Origin: Cellulomonas citrea
GTDB taxonomy: Bacteria; Actinomycetota; Actinomycetes; Actinomycetales; Cellulomonadaceae
Reading direction: 5' to 3'
NCBI RefSeq assembly: GCF_009829685.1
Contig: NZ_VWSD01000012.1
Location: 1 to 38,772, forward strand
DNA length: 38,772 bases
Below the pieces are notes generated by a model, which worked only from the letters and a program-made list of their open reading frames with translations, did no database searches and was not told the DNA's origin. The position numbers and the translations under genes were made by a program. Numbering within the stretch: the first letter of the stretch is position 1; every line of letters starts with the position of its first letter. This document shows, one piece after another, positions 10,093 through 38,277 of this stretch.

Positions 10093-10463
10093 TGCGCCGC
10101 CTGCTCTGGATCGGCGTCGGCGTGGGCCTCACCGTCCTGGTCGCCCGTCGCGGCCGGGCGTGGCTGGCCGAGGTGGTCCCCGAGCCCGCGACCGGCACGG
10201 TCGACACCGCGATCTCCGTGGCGAAGGTGCTGCGGCACGCCCGCTCCGAGTTCGACGCCGGCTGGGCCGCCAAGGAGACCGAGCTCATGACCGCCCTGGT
10301 CGGCGACCGCGACCCGAGCACGCTCGCCGCTGACGGCGCGGCCGCCCGTGAGGCGTTGCGCGCCCGCCGTGCGCACGAGGACCGCTGGTCCCGGCGCATC
10401 TCGGAGGACTGGGCCGACCAGCCCACCGAGGACCCCGACGACGACGACGGCTACGCCTTCTAG
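10092..10463 (+). CDS. Small membrane protein, DUF6167-like
   Basis: Encodes 123 aa. A short hydrophobic N-terminal segment (about residues 4-18) carries a basic RRGRAW patch. A helical region is followed by an acidic tail ending in DDDDGYAF. The ATG shares its A with the DUF948 stop, so the two are translationally coupled and may act together at the membrane. The family assignment rests on the position between the DUF948 gene and alaS and on overall layout. No catalytic motif is visible and no function can be stated. Confidence 0.75.
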   Translation: MRRLLWIGVGVGLTVLVARRGRAWLAEVVPEPATGTVDTAISVAKVLRHARSEFDAGWAAKETELMTALVGDRDPSTLAADGAAAREALRARRAHEDRWSRRISEDWADQPTEDPDDDDGYAF

Positions 10464-10506
10464 CCACCCCCTGCCCCGCGCCCACCGCGAACCACGAGGA
10501 CCCCCG

Positions 10507-13191
<2,685 letters not shown>

Positions 13192-28673: not shown

Positions 28674-29861
28674 ATGCTGCGTTGGTTGACCGCGGGTGAG
28701 TCGCACGGCCCGGCCCTGGTGGGCATCCTCGAGGGGATGCCGGCCGGGGTCGGTGTCGTCTCCGGTGACGTGCAGGCCGCGCTGGCCCGCCGTCGGCTCG
28801 GGTACGGGCGTGGTGCCCGGATGTCCTTCGAGCAGGACGAGGTGCGTCTGCTCGGGGGCGTCCGGCACGGTCTGACCCAGGGCGGGCCGGTCGCCGTCGA
28901 GGTGGCGAACACCGAGTGGCCGAAGTGGTCGCAGGTGATGGCCTCCGACCCGGTGGACGACGTCGAGGCGCTGTCGCGGGCCCGCAACGCCCCGCTCACC
29001 CGGCCGCGTCCGGGTCACGCCGACCTCGTGGGGATGCGCAAGTACGGGTTCGAGGACGCCCGCCCGGTGCTCGAGCGGGCCAGTGCGCGCGAGACCGCGA
29101 TGCGGGTCGCGCTCGGCACGGTCGCGGCCAAGCTCCTCGAGCAGGCCGCCGGGGTGCGCCTGGTGTCGCACGTCGTGGCGATCGGCCCGGTCGCCGTGCC
29201 CGAGGGCGCGCCGCTGCCGGTGCCCGACGACGTCGACCGGCTGGACGAGGACCCGGTGCGCTGCCTGCACGCCGAGACGAGCGCGGCGATGGTGGCCGAG
29301 ATCGACGCGTGCCGCAAGGACGGTGACACGCTCGGCGGTGTGGTCGAGGTGCTCGCCTACGGCCTGCCGTCGGGGCTGGGCAGCTACGTGCACGCCGACC
29401 GGCGGCTGGACGCCCGGATCGCTGGTGAGCTCATGGGGATCCAGGCCATCAAGGGGGTCGAGGTCGGCGACGGTTTCACCACGGCGACCCGGCGCGGTTC
29501 TGCCGCGCACGACGAGATCGACCGGGTCGACGGTCACCTGGTGCGGGCCACCAACCGGGCCGGCGGCATCGAGGGCGGCATGTCCACCGGTGAGGTGCTG
29601 CGGGTCCGCGCCGCCATGAAGCCCATCTCGACGGTGCCCCGCGCGCTGCGCACGGTCGACGTCGCGACCGGCGAACCGGCCCAGGCCCAGCACCAGCGCT
29701 CGGACGTGTGCGCGGTGCCGCCGGCGGCCGTCGTGGCCGAGGCGATGGTGGCCCTCGTGCTGGCACAGGCGCTGCTGGAGAAGACCGGCGGCGACAGCCT
29801 CGCGGAGGTGCGGCGCAACCTGGCCGCCTACCTGGACTCCGTGCCCGAGCTGCTGCGGTGA
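28674..29861 (+). CDS. aroC: Chorismate synthase
   Basis: Encodes 395 aa, with GAAAGGA before the ATG. Family signatures are [19 protein letters not shown] at the N-terminus, [30 protein letters not shown] and [15 protein letters not shown]. The protein converts EPSP to chorismate using reduced FMN. It lies 34 bases after pilO, and its stop overlaps the next gene (GTGA). A short gap and no clear promoter leave open that it is partly read from the pilus operon. Confidence 0.97.
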
Positions 29862-30388
29862 GCCCGCAGGTCGCGCTGGTCCTTGTCGGCCCGCCCGGCG
29901 CGCCGGTCGCGGAGGTGGCCGCGGTGCTCGCCGAACGCTGGGGCTCGCCTCTGGCCGACACCGACGTCCTGGTGACCGGTCGCACGGGCCGCACCCCCGC
30001 CGACCTGCTGGTGCAGGACGGCGAGGAGGCGCTGCGCGAGGTCGAGCGGGCCGTCGCCCTGCCGGTGCTGGCCGCCGGCACCGGTGTGGTGGCGTTGGGC
30101 AGCGGCGCGGTGGAGGACGAGCAGGTCCGCGCCGTGCTGGCCGCCTGGTCGGCCGGCGGGGGTCATGTCGTGCTGCTGGACCTGGCGCCCACGACGGCCG
30201 CTCGCCGGGCCGGGTTGCACGCGGGCAGCACCGCCCTCGTGGGGACCAGGGCCCGCTGGCGCGCACTGTTCGACGCCCGGCACCCGCGCTATCTCGAGGT
30301 GGCGACGGGCGTGGTCGCCGTCGACGAGCTCGACGTGGCCGGTGCGGCCGATGCAGTGGAGGCCTCGCTCGTCGGTCCGCACGACTGA
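29858..30388 (+). CDS. Degenerate shikimate-kinase-like protein (P-loop lost)
   Basis: Encodes 176 aa from a GTG overlapping the aroC stop. The overall shikimate kinase plan is recognisable: [31 protein letters not shown], and a lid-like [20 protein letters not shown] with HPRYLEVA. The nucleotide-binding loop reads GPPGAPVAE where GxxGxGK(S/T) is expected, so both the Lys and the Ser/Thr are gone. The Gly triplet is GSG, and the lid lacks the usual Arg-Pro pair. There is no frameshift and the frame is full length, so it may be an inactive paralogue kept for a structural or regulatory role. An intact shikimate kinase lies at 36596. Confidence 0.85.
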
Positions 30389-30416: not shown

Positions 30417-30454
30417 GTCCTGACCGCGGGCGGGCCGCCGCCCGCGGTCAGGAC
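30417..30454. terminator. Bidirectional terminator between the aroC unit and the flavoprotein gene
   Basis: A perfect 17-bp stem (arms 30417-30433 and 30438-30454) with a GCCG loop lies between two converging genes, 29 bases after one stop and 6 bases after the other. It separates the aroC unit from the inserted module. Confidence 0.85.
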
Positions 30455-30459
30455 CAGTC

Positions 30460-32577
30460 TCAGCGCCGCTGGGCGGCGGCGACGTCGGGGGAGAGCAGCC
30501 CCTCGCGTTCGAGCGCGAGCAGCACGTCACGCCCGCCCGCGGTGGCGTCGATGATCCGGCCGACCCGGGCCGAGTCGCCGATGTTGAGCACCTCGACGCC
30601 GCTTCCCGCGAAGTGCGCGACGAGGTCGCGGTACGGCTCGTCGACGGCGCGCATCCCCAGGCACACGAACGCGAGGTCGAAGCCGTGCTCGACCGTCGCG
30701 CCGTCGGGCGCCTCGAGCACGAGGTGGTCGTCCTTGACCTCGAGCAGCGAGGTCGAGGTCCGCACGTCGACGTCGTGCTTCTCCAGCATCTCCACCATCT
30801 GCATGCGCGTGATGAGGTCGAGGTCCGCACCCACGGTGCCCAATCGCTCGACGAGAGTCACGCGGGCCCCCCGGGCGGTCACGTGCTCGACCACATCGAG
30901 CCCGACGGCCCCGGCGCCGACCACAACGACCTGGCGTCCGTCCAGGTCGAGGTCCTCGGCGTGCGCGGTGGCGCCGAGGATGGAGTAGACGGCGCTGCCG
31001 GGCTGGTCGATCCGCTCGCGCAGACCGGGCACGGGTGGCACGAGCGGTGCCGACCCGGTCGCGTTGACGACGAGGTCGGGGGACAGGGACGCCACGACCG
31101 ACGGGGTGCCCCAGGTGCCGGTGCGCACGTCGACGCCGACCCGCGCGGCCCGCCGGGCCAGGTGGTGCAGGAACCCGGCGATGCGCCGCTTGGCGGGCAG
31201 GTGCACGGCGTCACCCACGACACCGCCCACCACGTCGCGCCCCTCGAGCAGCACGACGTCGCAGCCGACCTCGGCCGCGGTGCACGCGGCCTCGAACCCG
31301 CCGACCCCGCCGCCCACGACGACGACCTTCGCCGGCCGGGTGACCCGCCGATCCTGGTACGCCTCGTGGCCGATGATGTCGGGGTTGACGGTGCAGCGGA
31401 TCGGACGGTCGAGCCGGATGCGGTGGTCGGCGCAGCCGATGTTGCACGAGATGCACGCCAAGATCGTGTTGGCGGCCCCGTCGGCGACCTTGCGCACCCA
31501 CCACGGGTCGGCGATGAGCCCGCGGCCGATGGCGACGAGGTCGGACTGCCCGTCGGCGACGATCCGCTCGGCGACCTTGGGGTCGCGGATGTTGCCGCTG
31601 ATGATCGTGGGCCGGCCGAACTCCTCGCGGAACCGGCGGGCCATGTCGGCGCGCCAGCCGTCGGGCAGGTCCATGGAGTCGATCTGGTACTGCAGGTTGA
31701 AGGCGAGGGCGGCGGAGACGTCGATGACGTCGATCTCGTCGACCATGTACCGCATGAGCTCGACGGACTCGGCGAGCGTGTTCCCGCCGGCCACCAGGTC
31801 GTCCGCGCTGATGCGCACGAGCACCGGGTAGCGCGGCCCGACCTGCGCGCGCACGGCGGCGAGCACCTCGCGCACGATCCGGGCCCGGTTCTGCGGGCTG
31901 CCGCCGTAGGAGTCGGTGCGGGTGTTGTAGTACGGCGACAGGAACTGGCACAGCAGGTAGGAGTGCCCGGCGTGGATCTCGACCGCGTCGAACCCGGCCC
32001 GCTGCGCACGGCGTGCGGCGGCGGCGAAGTCGGCGACGACCTGGGCGATCTGCTCGACGTCCATCGGGACGGGGGAGGTGCCGCCCGGCTTGGACGGCCG
32101 CTCTCCGGAGGACTGTGCGGGCACCCCGGTGCGCGCGGGGTTCGCCGAGGCACCGGCGTGGTTGAGCTGGATGGCGACCTTGGACCCGTGCCGGTGCAGC
32201 TGCTCGGTGAGCTCCCACAGCCGCGGGACGTACCGGTCGTGGTCGATGCGCAGCTGCGTCGTGCCGTTCGACCCGGCGGGATAGCTCACGCAGATGTTCT
32301 CTACGATGATGAGCCCGACGCCGCCGCGGGCCCGCTGGGCGTAGTAGGCGATCTGGGTGTCGGAGACGGTGCCGTCGGGCAGCGCGAAGTTCGTGCCCAT
32401 GGGGGGCATCACCACGCGGTTGCGCAGGGTCATGCCGCGCACCGAGAACGGCGACAGCAGCGCAGGCGTCCGGGGGTGCGGGTCGCACGGTGCGACCGGC
32501 ACGGCGACCGGGGCCACGTCCAGACGACGGGGCCGGGCCAGGCCTGGGGCGGACGGGATCCCTCCGGTGACGGTCAC
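30460..32577 (-). CDS. Old-yellow-enzyme/4Fe-4S/FAD oxidoreductase (2-enoate or 2,4-dienoyl-CoA reductase family)
   Basis: Encodes 705 aa from a GTG with GAGGAG five bases upstream. After a 35-residue extension comes an FMN TIM barrel (about 38-370) with VVMPPMGTNFA, QLNHAGA and HAGHSYLLCQFLSPYYN. The iron-sulfur site is C375-x2-C378-x3-C382-x12-C395. The C-terminal dinucleotide domains have VVVVGGGVGGFEAA and VVVVGAGAVGLDVVEH. Family members reduce activated C=C bonds with NAD(P)H, or act on amines. Beside a YdiB-like dehydrogenase, dehydroquinase and carrier, an enone such as 3-dehydroshikimate is a plausible but unproven substrate. A dyad lies just upstream of its ribosome-binding site. 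Confidence 0.88.
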   Translation of the reverse strand: MTVTGGIPSAPGLARPRRLDVAPVAVPVAPCDPHPRTPALLSPFSVRGMTLRNRVVMPPMGTNFALPDGTVSDTQIAYYAQRARGGVGLIIVENICVSYPAGSNGTTQLRIDHDRYVPRLWELTEQLHRHGSKVAIQLNHAGASANPARTGVPAQSSGERPSKPGGTSPVPMDVEQIAQVVADFAAAARRAQRAGFDAVEIHAGHSYLLCQFLSPYYNTRTDSYGGSPQNRARIVREVLAAVRAQVGPRYPVLVRISADDLVAGGNTLAESVELMRYMVDEIDVIDVSAALAFNLQYQIDSMDLPDGWRADMARRFREEFGRPTIISGNIRDPKVAERIVADGQSDLVAIGRGLIADPWWVRKVADGAANTILACISCNIGCADHRIRLDRPIRCTVNPDIIGHEAYQDRRVTRPAKVVVVGGGVGGFEAACTAAEVGCDVVLLEGRDVVGGVVGDAVHLPAKRRIAGFLHHLARRAARVGVDVRTGTWGTPSVVASLSPDLVVNATGSAPLVPPVPGLRERIDQPGSAVYSILGATAHAEDLDLDGRQVVVVGAGAVGLDVVEHVTARGARVTLVERLGTVGADLDLITRMQMVEMLEKHDVDVRTSTSLLEVKDDHLVLEAPDGATVEHGFDLAFVCLGMRAVDEPYRDLVAHFAGSGVEVLNIGDSARVGRIIDATAGGRDVLLALEREGLLSPDVAAAQRR

Positions 32578-32591
32578 GTCATCTCCTCGCT

Positions 32592-32615
32592 AATGAACCA
32601 TGCGGTTAGTTCATT
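32592..32615. promoter_or_regulatory. Operator-like dyad upstream of the flavoprotein gene
   Basis: AATGAAC (32592-32598) and GTTCATT (32609-32615) form a perfect 7-bp inverted repeat with a 10-base centre, 15 bases before the GTG. The AACC/GGTT inside extends the symmetry. This is a typical TetR-type operator form. A related dyad with the same spacing lies at 33466. Confidence 0.6.
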
Positions 32616-32669
32616 GTGGCGAGCACGCCCGTCCGGCGAGTGAGCACTAGGTCCTGAGGACTGCGGGGC

Positions 32670-33356
32670 TCAGCGACCCGGGTCGGCGAGCACGAGGCGA
32701 AGCACCGTGGTCTCGATGAGCGCGAGCACGTGCTCCCGCTCGTCGCCGGCCACCATGTCGCGCCCGAACAGCTCGCGGAACGTGGCACGGTTGCCGACCC
32801 GGAAGAACGACAACGAGCTGATCACCTGGTGCAGGTCGAGCGCCGTGGGGGCGTCGGGGCCGCCGCGGAAGTCGCCGGAGCGTCGGCCCCGCTCGAGCAG
32901 GTCCTCCAGGATGAGCACCGCGGACCGGTTGAGCGCACGCACGTCGTCGTCCATGAGGTGGATCGCGCCACCGGCGAGCGTGTTCTCGAACATGACGAGC
33001 CGGATGAAGCCGGCGTTGTGCTCCTGGTGGTCGAGCGTCGCCCTCACCAGTGCGCGCAGCCCGTCGGCGGGGGCAAGTGCCGCCAGGTCGAGGGCGCCCT
33101 CGGTCTGCCGGATCCGTCGGTAGGACTCGATGAGCGCGGCCTGGTACAACCGCTCCTTGGACTCGAAGTAGTAGTAGACCATCCGCTTCGTCGTGGCCGT
33201 CCGCTCGACGATGGCGTCGACCCGCCCGCCCAGCAGCCCCCGCTCGGAGAACTCCTCGATGGCTGCGTCGAGGATCGCGGCCCGGGTGCGCTCGGCGTCC
33301 CGCCGCGGGGTCGGGCCCGTCGGGTCCGGTGCGGTGGAGTCCTGCTCGTGGGTCAT
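32670..33356 (-). CDS. TetR-family transcriptional regulator
   Basis: Encodes 228 aa. After a disordered N-terminus, the helix-turn-helix domain runs from about 19 to 70. It has RAAILDAAIEEFSERGLLG, VDAIVERTATTKRMVYYYF and ESKERLYQAAL. The C-terminal ligand-binding domain (about 90-225) is helical and diverse. It is divergent from the YdiB-like gene and in tandem with the flavoprotein gene, with a candidate operator before each. It probably represses both units and is relieved by a small molecule, perhaps a quinate/shikimate metabolite. The ligand is inference only. GAGGAG precedes the ATG. Confidence 0.92.
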   Translation of the reverse strand: MTHEQDSTAPDPTGPTPRRDAERTRAAILDAAIEEFSERGLLGGRVDAIVERTATTKRMVYYYFESKERLYQAALIESYRRIRQTEGALDLAALAPADGLRALVRATLDHQEHNAGFIRLVMFENTLAGGAIHLMDDDVRALNRSAVLILEDLLERGRRSGDFRGGPDAPTALDLHQVISSLSFFRVGNRATFRELFGRDMVAGDEREHVLALIETTVLRLVLADPGR

Positions 33357-33465
33357 GCGTCCTCCTCGGGTGCGGGCGTCGACGTGCGCCGGCGGCCGCC
33401 GTGGGTCGTGCGGATGTGGTCAGGACCTAGGACCCCGCGTGGTCGGGCATCGGCAGCGTCAGACT

Positions 33466-33487
33466 GTGGACTACCAAGTGAGTTCAT
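33466..33487. promoter_or_regulatory. Second operator-like dyad, upstream of the YdiB-like gene
   Basis: GTGGAC (33466-33471), ten bases, then GTTCAT (33482-33487). The right half equals that of the dyad at 32592, and the left half agrees in four of six bases with ATGAAC. It sits in the 172-base gap between the divergent tetR and dehydrogenase genes, 41 bases before the latter. Confidence 0.45.
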
Positions 33488-33528
33488 AAGCGCTCCGCAC
33501 AGGTGCGCCGCCGACGGAGGGTGAGGTC

Positions 33529-34407
33529 ATGTCGGACGAAGTAGCCCAGCGGATCACCGGGCACACCGAGCTGCTGGGGCTGATCGCCTCCCCGATCCGG
33601 CACAGCCAGTCGCCGCGCATGCACAACCTCGCCCTCGCCACGCTGGGGCTCGACTACGCCTACCTCGCGTTCGAGGTGGACGACGGTGAGCTCGCAGGCG
33701 CGGTCGCCGGGCTCAAGGCGCTCAAGGTCCGCGGCTGGAACGTGTCGATGCCGAACAAGATCGCCATCCTGCCCCTGCTCGACCACCTGTCCCCGGCGGT
33801 CCGCATGGTGGGCGCGTGCAACACCGTCGTCAACGACGACGGCGTGCTCACCGGCCACGTCACCGACGGCATCGGCTACGTCGCCGCGCTGCGCGAGAAC
33901 GGGATCGAGCCCGCCGGTGCGCACCTCACGCTCATCGGAGCCGGGGGAGCGGGCACCGCCATCGCCATCCAGGCCGCGCTCGACGGAGTGGCCCGGCTCG
34001 ACATCTTCAACCGCCGTGACGCCGTCTGGGCGATCGGCGAGAAGACCGTGGCCACCATCCGCGAGAACACCGGCACCCAGGTCGAGCTGCACGACCTCGA
34101 CGACGTCGCCGCGTTCCGCACGGCCGTCGCCGACTCCGCGGTGCTCGCCAACGCCACGAACGTCGGCATGGGAAAGCTGCTGGGGGTCTCCCCGCTGCCG
34201 GACACGGCGGTCCTTCGTCCCGACCTGTTCGTGTCGGACGTCGTCTACGCTCCGCCGCGGACGGCCTTCCTCGACCAGGCGGAGGCCGCCGGCTGCCGGA
34301 CCATGAACGGCCTCGGCATGATGCTCCACCAGGGCGCAGCGGCATTCGAGCTGTGGACCGGCACACCGATGCCCCTGGACTACGTGCGCGAGCACCTGCT
34401 CGCCTGA
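33529..34407 (+). CDS. YdiB/QuiB-type quinate/shikimate dehydrogenase
   Basis: Encodes 292 aa with a strong GGAGGGTGAGG before the ATG. It resembles E. coli YdiB more than AroE: LIASPIRHSQSPRMHN, VSMPNK with catalytic Lys77, NTVVNDDG and TDGIGY with Asp113. The nucleotide loop is GAGGAGTAIA. The turn reads FNRRD (Asp164), like the Asp in YdiB that allows NAD use. The biosynthetic copy at 15523 has an Arg/Ser-type turn instead. The C-terminus is NGLGMMLHQGAAAFELWTG. It probably oxidises imported shikimate, and perhaps quinate, to the 3-dehydro compounds. It heads a probable operon with aroD and the MFS gene. Confidence 0.93.
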   Translation: MSDEVAQRITGHTELLGLIASPIRHSQSPRMHNLALATLGLDYAYLAFEVDDGELAGAVAGLKALKVRGWNVSMPNKIAILPLLDHLSPAVRMVGACNTVVNDDGVLTGHVTDGIGYVAALRENGIEPAGAHLTLIGAGGAGTAIAIQAALDGVARLDIFNRRDAVWAIGEKTVATIRENTGTQVELHDLDDVAAFRTAVADSAVLANATNVGMGKLLGVSPLPDTAVLRPDLFVSDVVYAPPRTAFLDQAEAAGCRTMNGLGMMLHQGAAAFELWTGTPMPLDYVREHLLA

Positions 34408-34468
34408 CACCCCTGCCGGGCACGCGAGAAGGACCTCGTGCACCCGACGCCCCCGAGAGGAGCACCAC

Positions 34469-35224
34469 ATGAGCTCGGTCACCGTCCGTGGGGTCGAGAT
34501 CGGTTCTGGTCTGCCGAAGGTCATCGTGCCGTTGGTCGGCACGGACGTCGAGGCGGTGCTCGCCCAGGCGGCTGCCGCCGTGGCGGCCGCGCCGGACCTC
34601 ATCGAGTGGCGGCTGGACTTCCTGGCCGACCGGTCCCCGCGGGCCGTCGTGGCCGTGGCCCGTGCGCTCGCGCCGGTGCTCGGCGGACGCCCGCTGCTGG
34701 CCACCTTCCGCACCGCCGACGAGGGCGGGCAGCACCCGATCGCACCCGACCTGTACGTCGAGCTGTACGGGGCCCTCGTCGAGGCAGGTCTGGTCGACCT
34801 GGTCGATGTCGAGATCGAGCGGGAGGCCACCGCGGTGGACGCCGTGATCTCCCAGGCCCGCGCGGCGGGGGTCGCCGTCGTCGGCTCGTACCACGACTTC
34901 GGTGGCACGCCGAGCGTGCCGGTCATGGTCGCCAAGCTGCGCACCATGGTCGACCGGGGCGTCGACATCGCCAAGATCGCCGTCATGCCGCACGACGCGG
35001 GTGACGTGCTCGCGCTGCTGCAGGCCACCTGGACGGCCCGCCAGGAGCTGCCGCGCCCGCTCATCACGATGTCGATGGCCGGCACGGGCGTCGTGTCCCG
35101 GCTGGCCGGTGAGGTGTTCGGCTCCGCCGCGACGTTCGGCACCGTCGGCCAGGCGTCCGCGCCCGGCCAGGTCGAGGTGCCCGCGCTGCGCGCGACGCTG
35201 CAGCTCATCCACAGCGCAGTCTGA
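34469..35224 (+). CDS. aroD: Type I 3-dehydroquinate dehydratase
   Basis: Encodes 251 aa, normal for the type I (Schiff base) class. The key residues are visible: Glu in EWRLDF, Arg in TFRTADEGG, general base His142 in SYHDF, Schiff-base Lys169 in DIAKIAVMP, and the C-terminal SRLAGEVFGSAATFG and SAPGQ. GAGAGGAG lies upstream of the ATG. It interconverts 3-dehydroquinate and 3-dehydroshikimate. Actinobacterial biosynthesis commonly uses the unrelated type II enzyme, so a type I copy beside a YdiB-like enzyme and a carrier suggests use of external quinate or shikimate. Confidence 0.95.
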   Translation: MSSVTVRGVEIGSGLPKVIVPLVGTDVEAVLAQAAAAVAAAPDLIEWRLDFLADRSPRAVVAVARALAPVLGGRPLLATFRTADEGGQHPIAPDLYVELYGALVEAGLVDLVDVEIEREATAVDAVISQARAAGVAVVGSYHDFGGTPSVPVMVAKLRTMVDRGVDIAKIAVMPHDAGDVLALLQATWTARQELPRPLITMSMAGTGVVSRLAGEVFGSAATFGTVGQASAPGQVEVPALRATLQLIHSAV

Positions 35225-35229
35225 CGACG

Positions 35230-36570
35230 GTGACCAGCACCCCCGGCACGACGGCCGTGCCCCTGCCCGGGACGAACGCGCCCGCGGCCCGGTACACCGG
35301 CCCGCGACTGCGCTACCTCGTCCTCGTCCTGCTCGCGTTCGGGACGTTCGTCAACTACCTCGACCGGATCAACCTCACGGTCGGCGCCACGCACATCCAG
35401 GCCGAGTTCGGCATCTCGGACGCGGCGTGGGGCATCGCACTGTCGGCCTTCGGCTGGACGTACGCGCTCATGCAGGTGCCCGGCGGTCTGGTGATGGACC
35501 GGTTCGGGGTCACCTGGGTGGGCCGGGTCTGCTCGTGGGCCTGGGTGGTGGCGACCTTCCTCACCGCGACCGTCTCGGGCTTCCTGCCGCTGCTCGCGCT
35601 GCGCCTGCTGCTCGGCGTGGCCGAGGCCCCGGCCTTCCCCATGGCGTCGACGGCGACGAGCTACTGGTTCCCGGTGCGCGAACGTGGGTTGGCCACCGCC
35701 TCGTTCGACATGACCTCCAAGCTCTCCAACGCGATCGGCGTCCCGCTCGTGGCCGTCGTCGTGGCGACGTGGGGCTGGCGTGCCGCGTTCATCGCGACCG
35801 GGGCGCTGTCCGTCGTCTACGCGGTGGCGTTCTGGGTGATCTACCGCAACCCCGACCGGCACCCGCGGCTGACGCCGGTCGAGGCGCAGTACATCGCGGA
35901 AGGTGGCGCCCAGCAGTCCGAGACCCAGGTGAGCCAGCCGAGCCCGATGTCGTACCTGGTGCGCCAGCGCAAGCTGTGGGCGATCGCGCTCACGCTCGCC
36001 GCGTACAACTACACGTTCTTCCTCTACCTCACCTGGCTGCCCACCTACCTCGAGCGCGAGATGGGCCTGGACGTCAAGGGCTCCGGGCTCTACTCGGCGA
36101 TCCCGTGGCTGGTCGGGACGGTCACCGCCGTGCTGATCGGCGGCGTGGCGATCGACCGGCTGATCCGCGACGGGCGCGACCCCTCACGCGTCCGCAAGAC
36201 GTTCCTCGCGGTCGGTCTGCTGCTCGGGATGGCCGTCATCGGCGCGACGACGGCGACGACCGCGGCGGTCGCCGTCGTGTGGATCTCGGTGTCGCTCGGT
36301 GGGGTCTGCATCGCCTCGGCGGTGATCTGGTCGCTGCCCGGGCTCATCGCACCTCCGGGGGCGGTCGGGCGGGTGAGCTCGATGATGGCCTTCGTGGGCA
36401 ACCTGTCCTCGATCGCAGCGCCCATGGTGACCGGGTTCGTCGTGCAGGCCACGGGCTCGTTCACCTGGGCCTTCGTCACGGCCGGCGGGGTGGTGGGCCT
36501 CGGTCTGCTGTCCGCCCTCGTGATGCTCGGGCGCATCGAGCAGCTGCCGGCCGCGGGCGCGCAGGCCTGA
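35230..36570 (+). CDS. MFS transporter, anion:cation symporter-like (organic acid uptake)
   Basis: Encodes 446 aa from a GTG five bases after the aroD stop, with no clear ribosome-binding site. About twelve membrane helices are visible. The first-helix block FGTFVNYLDRINLTVG and the GWTYALMQVPGGLVMDRFG loop are typical of the anion:cation symporter branch of the MFS. That branch imports sugar acids and aromatic acids with protons. The substrate is probably a carboxylic acid; quinate or shikimate is inferred from the two enzymes encoded just upstream. No terminator was recognised after it. Confidence 0.9.
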   Translation: MTSTPGTTAVPLPGTNAPAARYTGPRLRYLVLVLLAFGTFVNYLDRINLTVGATHIQAEFGISDAAWGIALSAFGWTYALMQVPGGLVMDRFGVTWVGRVCSWAWVVATFLTATVSGFLPLLALRLLLGVAEAPAFPMASTATSYWFPVRERGLATASFDMTSKLSNAIGVPLVAVVVATWGWRAAFIATGALSVVYAVAFWVIYRNPDRHPRLTPVEAQYIAEGGAQQSETQVSQPSPMSYLVRQRKLWAIALTLAAYNYTFFLYLTWLPTYLEREMGLDVKGSGLYSAIPWLVGTVTAVLIGGVAIDRLIRDGRDPSRVRKTFLAVGLLLGMAVIGATTATTAAVAVVWISVSLGGVCIASAVIWSLPGLIAPPGAVGRVSSMMAFVGNLSSIAAPMVTGFVVQATGSFTWAFVTAGGVVGLGLLSALVMLGRIEQLPAAGAQA

Positions 36571-36582
36571 TCGGGGCGTTGC

Positions 36583-36588
36583 TAGGGT
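36583..36588 (+). promoter_or_regulatory. Candidate -10 box (TAGGGT) for a leaderless aroK-aroB unit
   Basis: TAGGGT ends seven bases before GTG 36596, the same spacing as at 1043 and 7396. It would give aroK-aroB a promoter independent of the upstream module. Confidence 0.45.
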
Positions 36589-36595
36589 GGCCGCC

Positions 36596-38277
<1,682 letters not shown>

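Follow-up and report, generated by a model that had tools for sequence, protein, structure and literature searches.

Why should the aromatic-biosynthesis (aro) cluster of an actinobacterium harbor a quinate/shikimate block with an ene-reductase-like flavoprotein, and where would the 3-dehydroshikimate formed by such a block go? The locus lies at positions 30417–36570 of the 38,772-nucleotide stretch analyzed here (the window), which is the entire contig NZ_VWSD01000012.1 (C33) of Cellulomonas citrea, from a genome of 3.4 Mb in 434 contigs with an estimated completeness of 99.9%. It encodes an Old Yellow Enzyme (OYE)-type flavoprotein, a TetR-family regulator, a quinate/shikimate dehydrogenase (SDH), the dehydroquinase AroD, and a carrier of the major facilitator superfamily (MFS). 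The evidence consists of the gene content, its contiguity in relatives, co-occurrence across genomes, operator-like sites, a sole dehydroquinase found in the genome, and the lack of a recognized protocatechuate exit. Our reading, to which we give a probability of roughly 0.55, is that the block forms the front half of a reductive pathway for quinate and shikimate that serves as an electron sink, with its second half on another contig (C388) and a side feed into aromatic biosynthesis. In what follows, codes of the type G038, L117, and C388 denote genomes, loci, and contigs, respectively.

Organization and conservation of the block

Open reading frames and family profiles confirm all five genes, and aroK and aroB lie directly downstream:

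30460–32577, minus strand: OYE/4Fe-4S/FAD ene-reductase-like flavoprotein of 705 residues (Oxidored_FMN PF00724 and Pyr_redox_2 PF07992)
32670–33356, minus strand: TetR-family regulator TetR1 (PF00440 and PF17938)
33529–34407, plus strand: YdiB-type quinate/shikimate dehydrogenase, SDH (best PDB relative 3tnl, E 1.6e-106; 47.5% identical to E. coli YdiB)
34469–35224, plus strand: AroD, type I 3-dehydroquinate dehydratase (TIGR01093, 209.7 bits, above the cut-off of 139.3)
35230–36570, plus strand: MFS organic-acid carrier (PF07690)
36587–37189, plus strand: aroK, shikimate kinase belonging to the module (apart from the native copies in the kinase tree, clade support 1.000)
37186–38277, plus strand: aroB, 3-dehydroquinate synthase, last gene of the operon (above the TIGR01357 cut-off)

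Two divergent units start from the gap 33357–33528: the minus strand carries TetR1 followed by the flavoprotein, the plus strand SDH-aroD-MFS-aroK-aroB. The latter reads as one operon, since only 5 bp separate AroD from the MFS gene and 16 bp the MFS gene from aroK, while aroK and aroB overlap by 4 bp. The SDH, whose best structural relative 3tnl we take to be a Listeria enzyme, scores below both equivalog cut-offs, that of YdiB (NF009390, 293.4 vs. 349 bits) and that of shikimate dehydrogenase (NF001313, 421.8 vs. 431 bits).

The surroundings of related flavoproteins were obtained by an alignment-based genome scan, from which the best 80 of 502 loci were kept, some stretches being cut by contig ends. 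Gene content of GC-rich loci was taken from tblastn and from a gene caller scored on third-position GC (GC3), and longest-frame gene strings were trusted only for low-GC loci. SDH is found in 68 of these 80 neighborhoods, AroD in 58, both in 56, and at least one of them in 70; for the 60 loci of at least 19 kb, the numbers are 53 for SDH, 47 for AroD, and 45 for both. The linkage of the flavoprotein with SDH or AroD is thus not due to chance, since neither gene occurs in any of 17 control loci that hold distant OYE paralogues and come from the same taxonomic family. The original prediction of a quinate/shikimate module with an enone-type flavoprotein inside the aro cluster is borne out in these respects. 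The cassette is not restricted to actinobacteria, given that the linkage spans Firmicutes and Enterobacteria as well as Actinobacteria. A protein search returned 5008 relatives at E ≤ 1e-100, a set broader than the subfamily; among the matches listed (the best 120 of 5008), the nearest named relatives bearing the block are labelled Cellulomonas or Actinomycetota. One genome bin labelled Lysobacteraceae (L051) has a flavoprotein 58% identical to the actinobacterial one and may be either a mislabelled bin or a case of transfer.

The cassette also occurs in Listeria (lmo0489-type, L045–L048), where the genes are adjacent in the order flavoprotein-SDH-AroD and the products are 52–53% (OYE), 58% (SDH), and 44–47% (AroD) identical to those of the window, whereas a LysR regulator stands where the window has TetR. 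A search of three Listeria genomes (G186, G187, and G192) did not reveal CaiA1, an acyl-CoA dehydrogenase of the second operon presented below. A 2023 paper describes the reaction of Listeria lmo0489 as still to be elucidated (PMC10269891). Titles and abstract openings in the literature covered, mostly without subscription journals, assign no function to the OYE-SDH-AroD cassette.

The flavoprotein active site

Enzymes of the OYE type normally reduce C=C bonds. The window flavoprotein has its OYE barrel in common with 2-naphthoyl-CoA reductase (which we take structure 6qkg, named NCR in its file, to be), 2,4-dienoyl-CoA reductase, BaiCD, and YqjM, and its longer Fe-S/FAD layout with all of these except YqjM. 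Two sets of residues are invariant in 22 of 22 aligned relatives, namely H202, H205, and Y207 (His-x-x-His...Tyr) and C375, C378, C382, and C395; the four cysteines would bind a 4Fe-4S cluster, as follows from membership of the family. The HxxH...Y motif of enone-type OYEs (YqjM class) is present and aligns with EIHAAHGY of 3krz, presumably a YqjM-type OYE. Alignment with solved structures indicates that the His pair is shared by the window flavoprotein and 3krz and is missing from 2,4-dienoyl-CoA reductase and 6qkg. Because of this match to 3krz and of the missing His pair in the dienoyl- and naphthoyl-CoA reductases, the active-site residues appear to favor a C=C bond conjugated to a ketone, as in 3-dehydroshikimate, over one conjugated to a thioester. 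Two further identities were rejected from their model scores, the bile-acid flavoenzyme BaiCD (NF041087, 471.8 bits vs. a cut-off of 825) and mycofactocin OYE 2 (TIGR03997, 408.9 bits vs. 793).

A second, CoA-linked operon

Contig C388 (L140) of the same genome carries two acyl-CoA dehydrogenases (CaiA1 and CaiA2), a class III CoA-transferase (CaiB), an enzyme resembling FadK and cyclohexanecarboxylate-CoA ligase, and FixABCX; the labels CaiA1, CaiA2, and CaiB are given by position and Pfam family. By model test these are not carnitine genes, since they score far below the cut-offs for CaiA (540; CaiA1 116.1 and CaiA2 193.2 bits) and CaiB (413; 103.3 bits). For both dehydrogenases the top NCBIfam family is acryloyl-CoA reductase and the second cyclohexane-1-carbonyl-CoA dehydrogenase, all below cut-off; with the cyclohexanecarboxyl-CoA dehydrogenase models they reach at most 223.2 of 575 bits (TIGR03207) and 322.7 of 650 bits (NF043006). 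The ligase is best matched by FadK (NF004758, 626.2 bits, below the cut-off of 736) and next by cyclohexanecarboxylate-CoA ligase, again below cut-off. Between the TetR2 and MFS genes of this contig, inspection by eye suggests a NAD(P)-binding protein that resembles GltD and has 4Fe-4S motifs (L140, about 10116–11276, minus strand), a possible electron donor. A CaiB-like gene on contig C55 (L139) was set aside, its acyl-CoA dehydrogenase and CoA-transferase being only 26–30% similar; with an electron-transferring flavoprotein (ETF) pair and a FixC homologue, C55 holds a second, more distant cai/fix-like operon.

In relatives the two loci are contiguous. The order in G071 (L117) is MFS, CaiA1, CaiB, CaiA2, FixC, FixX, ligase, FixA, FixB, flavoprotein, TetR, SDH, AroD, and G038 (L181 and L116) shares this gene set, with a further MFS gene, a second TetR, and a shikimate kinase in addition. 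CaiA1, CaiB, CaiA2, and Fix genes also stand beside the flavoprotein in C. denverensis (L038) and in RIT-PI-Y (L040), and the C388 proteins are 85% (CaiA1) and 74% (CaiB) identical to those of L040; in L114 and L073, the CaiB/CaiA1/CaiA2 set occurs together with OYE. In Propionibacterium, clostridia, and an Actinomycetaceae genome, CaiB follows CaiA1, with CaiA2 and the ligase nearby. By eye, the unassigned gene that separates CaiB from CaiA2 in Propionibacterium and Actinomycetaceae appears to encode an MFS carrier, and a crotonase identity was dismissed. A GltD-like protein similar to that of C388 was also seen by eye in the clusters of these two groups (L189, L190, and L191).

Co-occurrence of the two halves agrees with this arrangement. 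A close flavoprotein (at least 70% identity, the next best having 40%) is present in 3 of 150 genomes of the family (G000, G038, and G071), and CaiA1 was found in exactly these three of 150 family genomes drawn likewise. If the genes were independent, this would be expected once in 551,300 cases, a figure that overstates the case because the genomes are related. Within a set of 51 flavoprotein-bearing genomes (48 of the 80 loci plus three), CaiA1 is found in 16, including seven of the eight closest carriers; the others are two Propionibacterium, one Actinomycetaceae, two clostridia, the L073 and L114 genomes, Phytobacter, and Edaphovirga.

The regulators point in the same direction. TetR2, encoded on C388 divergently from CaiA1, is 62% identical to TetR1, and operator-like palindromes occur at both loci, those of the window being:

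32591–32616, no strand: palindrome TGAAC-N10-GTTCA, 14–39 bp upstream of the flavoprotein start (matrix score 24.7)
33464–33487, no strand: palindrome of the TGAAC-N10-GTTCA type with one mismatch, in the TetR/SDH gap (score 35.4)

Six TetR/SDH intergenic sites chosen by eye, including that at 33464–33487, served to build the 24-column matrix, and the palindrome is present in all six Cellulomonas-type TetR/SDH intergenic regions compared. Among sites outside this building set, the one before the flavoprotein is the second-best in the window, and others precede the MFS gene of C388 (14097, score 23.2) and CaiA1 of the Actinomycetaceae genome (29.9) or lie in the MFS-CaiA1 gap of G150 (26.0) and in the SDH/OYE clusters of L044 (21.1), L050 (23.7 and 17.2), and L062 (19.2 and 17.2). 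Control loci totalling 376 kb gave two matches of at least 13, the best at 17.5, and another 51 kb of the window's genome contain no site of 12 or more. Through the paralogous TetR1 and TetR2 and the common candidate palindrome, the two loci seem to be linked in their control. Another candidate palindrome, GGGNC-N4-GTCCY, was noticed by eye at 33420–33436 of the window and likewise by eye in intergenic regions of both operons.

The original prediction had proposed a reductive branch run by the five genes. This branch, although not proven, is better supported than before, because the same genome carries a CoA-linked operon that in relatives is contiguous with the block and that is accompanied by a TetR paralogous to TetR1 and by an operator-like palindrome resembling those of the window; the five genes form a real module but only half of the system.

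Fate of 3-dehydroshikimate and the sole dehydroquinase

Known catabolism of quinate and shikimate would lead to protocatechuate. The single PF01261 protein of the genome is best matched by models of 2-oxo-tetronate and hydroxypyruvate isomerases, below their cut-offs, and is unlike the PF01261 proteins of related clusters (best E 0.56). No convincing dehydroshikimate dehydratase was recognized genome-wide, dehydratases of unknown fold not having been searched; intradiol (protocatechuate 3,4-) dioxygenase (PF00775) has no match in the genome, extradiol enzymes not having been searched. Classical Qsu/Qui catabolism was therefore rejected for this genome as far as searched. Six of the 80 loci do contain a dehydroshikimate-dehydratase-like PF01261 gene (L052, L054, L080, L084, L099, and L110). 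All six also hold two copies of the OYE subfamily.

AroD is the only PF01487 match in the genome, and no type II dehydroquinase (PF01220) was found there; being the only dehydroquinase found, AroD must also serve biosynthesis and is not purely catabolic. Type II dehydroquinase is present in 21 of 40 genomes of the genus and was not found in those four of the 40 in which the module or its second half is present (G000, G150, G157, and G176). For the last three, this presence was recognized from CaiA1 or paired aroK genes together with contigs that correspond to the contigs of L039, L037, and L040. G038 and G071 likewise have no match, nor have 40 of the 47 module genomes searched.

The sole dehydroquinase, the presence of aroK and aroB in the operon, the assignment of this aroK to the module, and a kinase cluster in 9 of the 80 loci (its representative, by eye, a chorismate mutase-kinase fusion) are what one would expect of salvage, in which imported quinate or shikimate would be led by SDH/AroD and the module kinase to chorismate, while the flavoprotein would have an ancillary part in detoxification or redox balance. 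The feeding of aromatic biosynthesis, considered from the outset as the simpler alternative, is in part upheld by AroD and the adjoining aroK. As a full explanation we hold it to be unlikely, because it does not account for the flavoprotein travelling with SDH/AroD, nor for a CoA-transferase/ligase/acyl-CoA dehydrogenase/Fix operon with the same type of operator.

Comparison with known systems

In E. coli K-12 (L157 and L158; 1771500–1788000), ydiN-ydiB-aroD-ydiF-ydiO-ydiP-ydiQRST-fadK form one neighborhood which, like the two loci of the window's genome taken together, provides MFS, SDH, AroD, CoA-transferase, acyl-CoA dehydrogenase, an ETF pair, FixC/FixX homologues, and FadK. Besides the SDH, the ligase (47% identical), AroD (47%), and the FixC-type protein (45%) resemble their E. 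coli counterparts. The E. coli stretch differs in having no OYE flavoprotein, one acyl-CoA dehydrogenase instead of two, and YdiP instead of TetR; moreover, YdiF is annotated as an acetate-CoA transferase and has no match to the class III CoA-transferase. The ydi-type functions are all present and contiguous in G038 and G071 and are split over two contigs in the window's genome, with the other type of CoA-transferase. Phytobacter and Edaphovirga (L194 and L195) have CaiA1 (55–56%), MFS, and CaiB (47%) divergent from homologues of YdiO/Q/R/S/T and FadK (60–71% identity), and since these genomes join ydiOQRST-fadK homologues to CaiA1 and CaiB, the E. coli ydi-fadK genes are tied to the same kit. 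The K-12 record calls ydiN, ydiF, ydiO, ydiQ, ydiR, and ydiS putative, and ydiO, ydiF, and ydiQ do not occur among the literature matches listed, which cover mostly journals without subscription.

With a CoA-transferase, a ligase, acyl-CoA dehydrogenases, and ETF, and with no CaiD-like hydratase found, the second operon bears the signature of electron-accepting cycles, among them carnitine reduction and caffeate respiration. E. coli caiTABCDE-fixABCX shares with the C388 operon a class III CoA-transferase, a CoA ligase, an acyl-CoA reductase, and FixABCX; it differs in its carriers and in CaiA and CaiB, which are only 23–30% identical, and in CaiD, of which no hydratase-like counterpart was found in the 16 cluster stretches searched. 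The caffeyl-CoA reductase CarC (6fah) appears as a PDB relative in a sequence comparison with the structure database.

The genes of the ansatrienin cyclohexanecarboxylate route comprise a CoA ligase, acyl-CoA dehydrogenase, and reductases, and this route and caffeate respiration can be likened, by description, to the C388 operon as CoA-linked reductions with acyl-CoA-dehydrogenase-type enzymes. Some actinobacteria can evidently reduce shikimate, because labelled shikimate enters the cyclohexane carboxylic acid unit of ansatrienin (PMC8788734). This labelling, together with cyclohexanecarboxylate-CoA ligase and cyclohexane-1-carbonyl-CoA dehydrogenase being the second-best families, would suit complete reduction of shikimate to cyclohexanecarboxyl-CoA as the starter for omega-cyclohexyl fatty acids or a natural product. 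Such a destination seems quite improbable for C388, where no fatty-acid or polyketide gene was recognized among the typed proteins (no dedicated search having been made) and where the presence of import carriers and of a CoA-transferase points to exchange with the medium.

Gut microbes reduce shikimate to cyclohexanecarboxylate, and some lactobacilli form dihydroshikimate. On a wider scale, we tentatively consider, at rather less than even odds, that a widespread and so far unrecognized shikimate/quinate respiration combines two means of reducing double bonds, an OYE acting on the free enone and a set of CoA-transferase, ligase, two acyl-CoA dehydrogenases, and Fix proteins acting on the CoA ester, to yield reduced cyclohexanecarboxylates from shikimate and quinate of the diet or of plants, that the E. 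coli ydi-fadK genes belong to this pathway instead of to anaerobic fatty-acid oxidation, and that clusters like that of L114 (Oscillospiraceae) supply the first microbial steps from quinate via cyclohexanecarboxylate to hippurate. A 2025 mouse study states that the gut bacteria turning quinic acid into hippurate are still to be determined (PMC12655642). The comparison names candidate genes for reductive microbial metabolism of quinate and shikimate and offers a testable function for the putative ydi genes of E. coli K-12, the uncharacterized Listeria-type flavoprotein, and the CoA-linked operon of Cellulomonas, Propionibacterium, and anaerobes.

Proposed pathway and points against it

In the reductive pathway that we prefer, the MFS carriers would import quinate or shikimate, which SDH of the YdiB type and AroD, judged by their families, would interconvert with 3-dehydroquinate and 3-dehydroshikimate. 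The flavoprotein would then use NAD(P)H to reduce the C=C bond in the ring of 3-dehydroshikimate, an enone. Enzymes of the C388 operon may activate the resulting ring acid to its CoA ester, the FadK-like ligase for priming and the class III CoA-transferase for recycling, and the two acyl-CoA dehydrogenase-type enzymes, fed by FixAB(CX), could reduce this ester by analogy with carnitine reduction and caffeate respiration. The likely product would be a reduced acid of the cyclohexanecarboxylate type, whose excretion makes the pathway an electron sink. Part of the flux can probably enter aromatic biosynthesis, because AroD and the shikimate kinase of the module seem to be biosynthetic enzymes too.

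Several points weigh against this pathway. We infer its substrates, its direction, and its product. Should the CoA-linked enzymes reduce C1=C2, the flavoprotein would look redundant, and its substrate may be a different intermediate. In the window's genome the two loci lie on separate contigs and do not touch, since the downstream neighbor of the flavoprotein on C33 is an aroK-like gene. CaiA1 was not found in 35 of the 51 module genomes, including the 88% relative G180/L036, so that the second half is not always needed and OYE-SDH-AroD often stands alone. As to the palindromes, the site adjoining CaiA1 on C388 scores only 10.4 and those adjoining CaiA1 in G071, RIT-PI-Y, and G038 score 14.7–16.8, none of them exceeding the best control match; at the CaiA1 loci of both Propionibacterium species (L150 and L152), no site reaches 13. 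Elsewhere there may be a dehydratase exit, as the PF01261 proteins of the six loci mentioned above suggest. Finally, both acyl-CoA dehydrogenases keep the catalytic Glu of the medium-chain acyl-CoA dehydrogenase type, where E. coli CaiA and YdiO have Gly, so that oxidation is possible. An oxidative CoA-linked degradation, in which the dehydrogenases and Fix proteins would oxidize a shikimate-derived ring acid to ring opening or aromatization after an early flavoprotein step, could draw on this residue and on the resemblance of FixC to E. coli FixC and to YdiS (by annotation a putative ETF-quinone oxidoreductase), but is hard to credit in view of the normally reductive chemistry of OYE-type enzymes and of 16 cluster stretches without a CaiD-like crotonase, thiolases and ring hydrolases not having been searched.

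History of the aro cluster

A further shikimate kinase gene lies upstream of the flavoprotein, after aroC:

29855–30388, plus strand: native shikimate kinase copy (PF01202), probably decayed, with the Walker A motif lost

One protein search for shikimate kinase in 40 genomes of the genus gave one match in 34, none in G153, and two in five. Two separate kinase genes are present in G000, G150, G157, and G176, whereas the two matches of G178 are adjoining pieces of one gene. The window aroK at 36587 is 70–73% identical to the kinases at the G038 and G176 clusters and on a separate contig of G150, with which it forms its clade. The copy at 29855 is 70% identical to that of G157/L037, with which it shares a long branch within the native Cellulomonas aroK genes. 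The most parsimonious account is that the module inserted beside the native kinase and that the latter then decayed. The aromatic-biosynthesis cluster is apparently being taken over by an incoming module, which would supply its sole dehydroquinase and a replacement shikimate kinase. A third shikimate-dehydrogenase-like gene, on contig C382 (L141, 5902–6729, minus strand), stands by eye beside fructose-phosphotransferase-system-like genes and was set aside.

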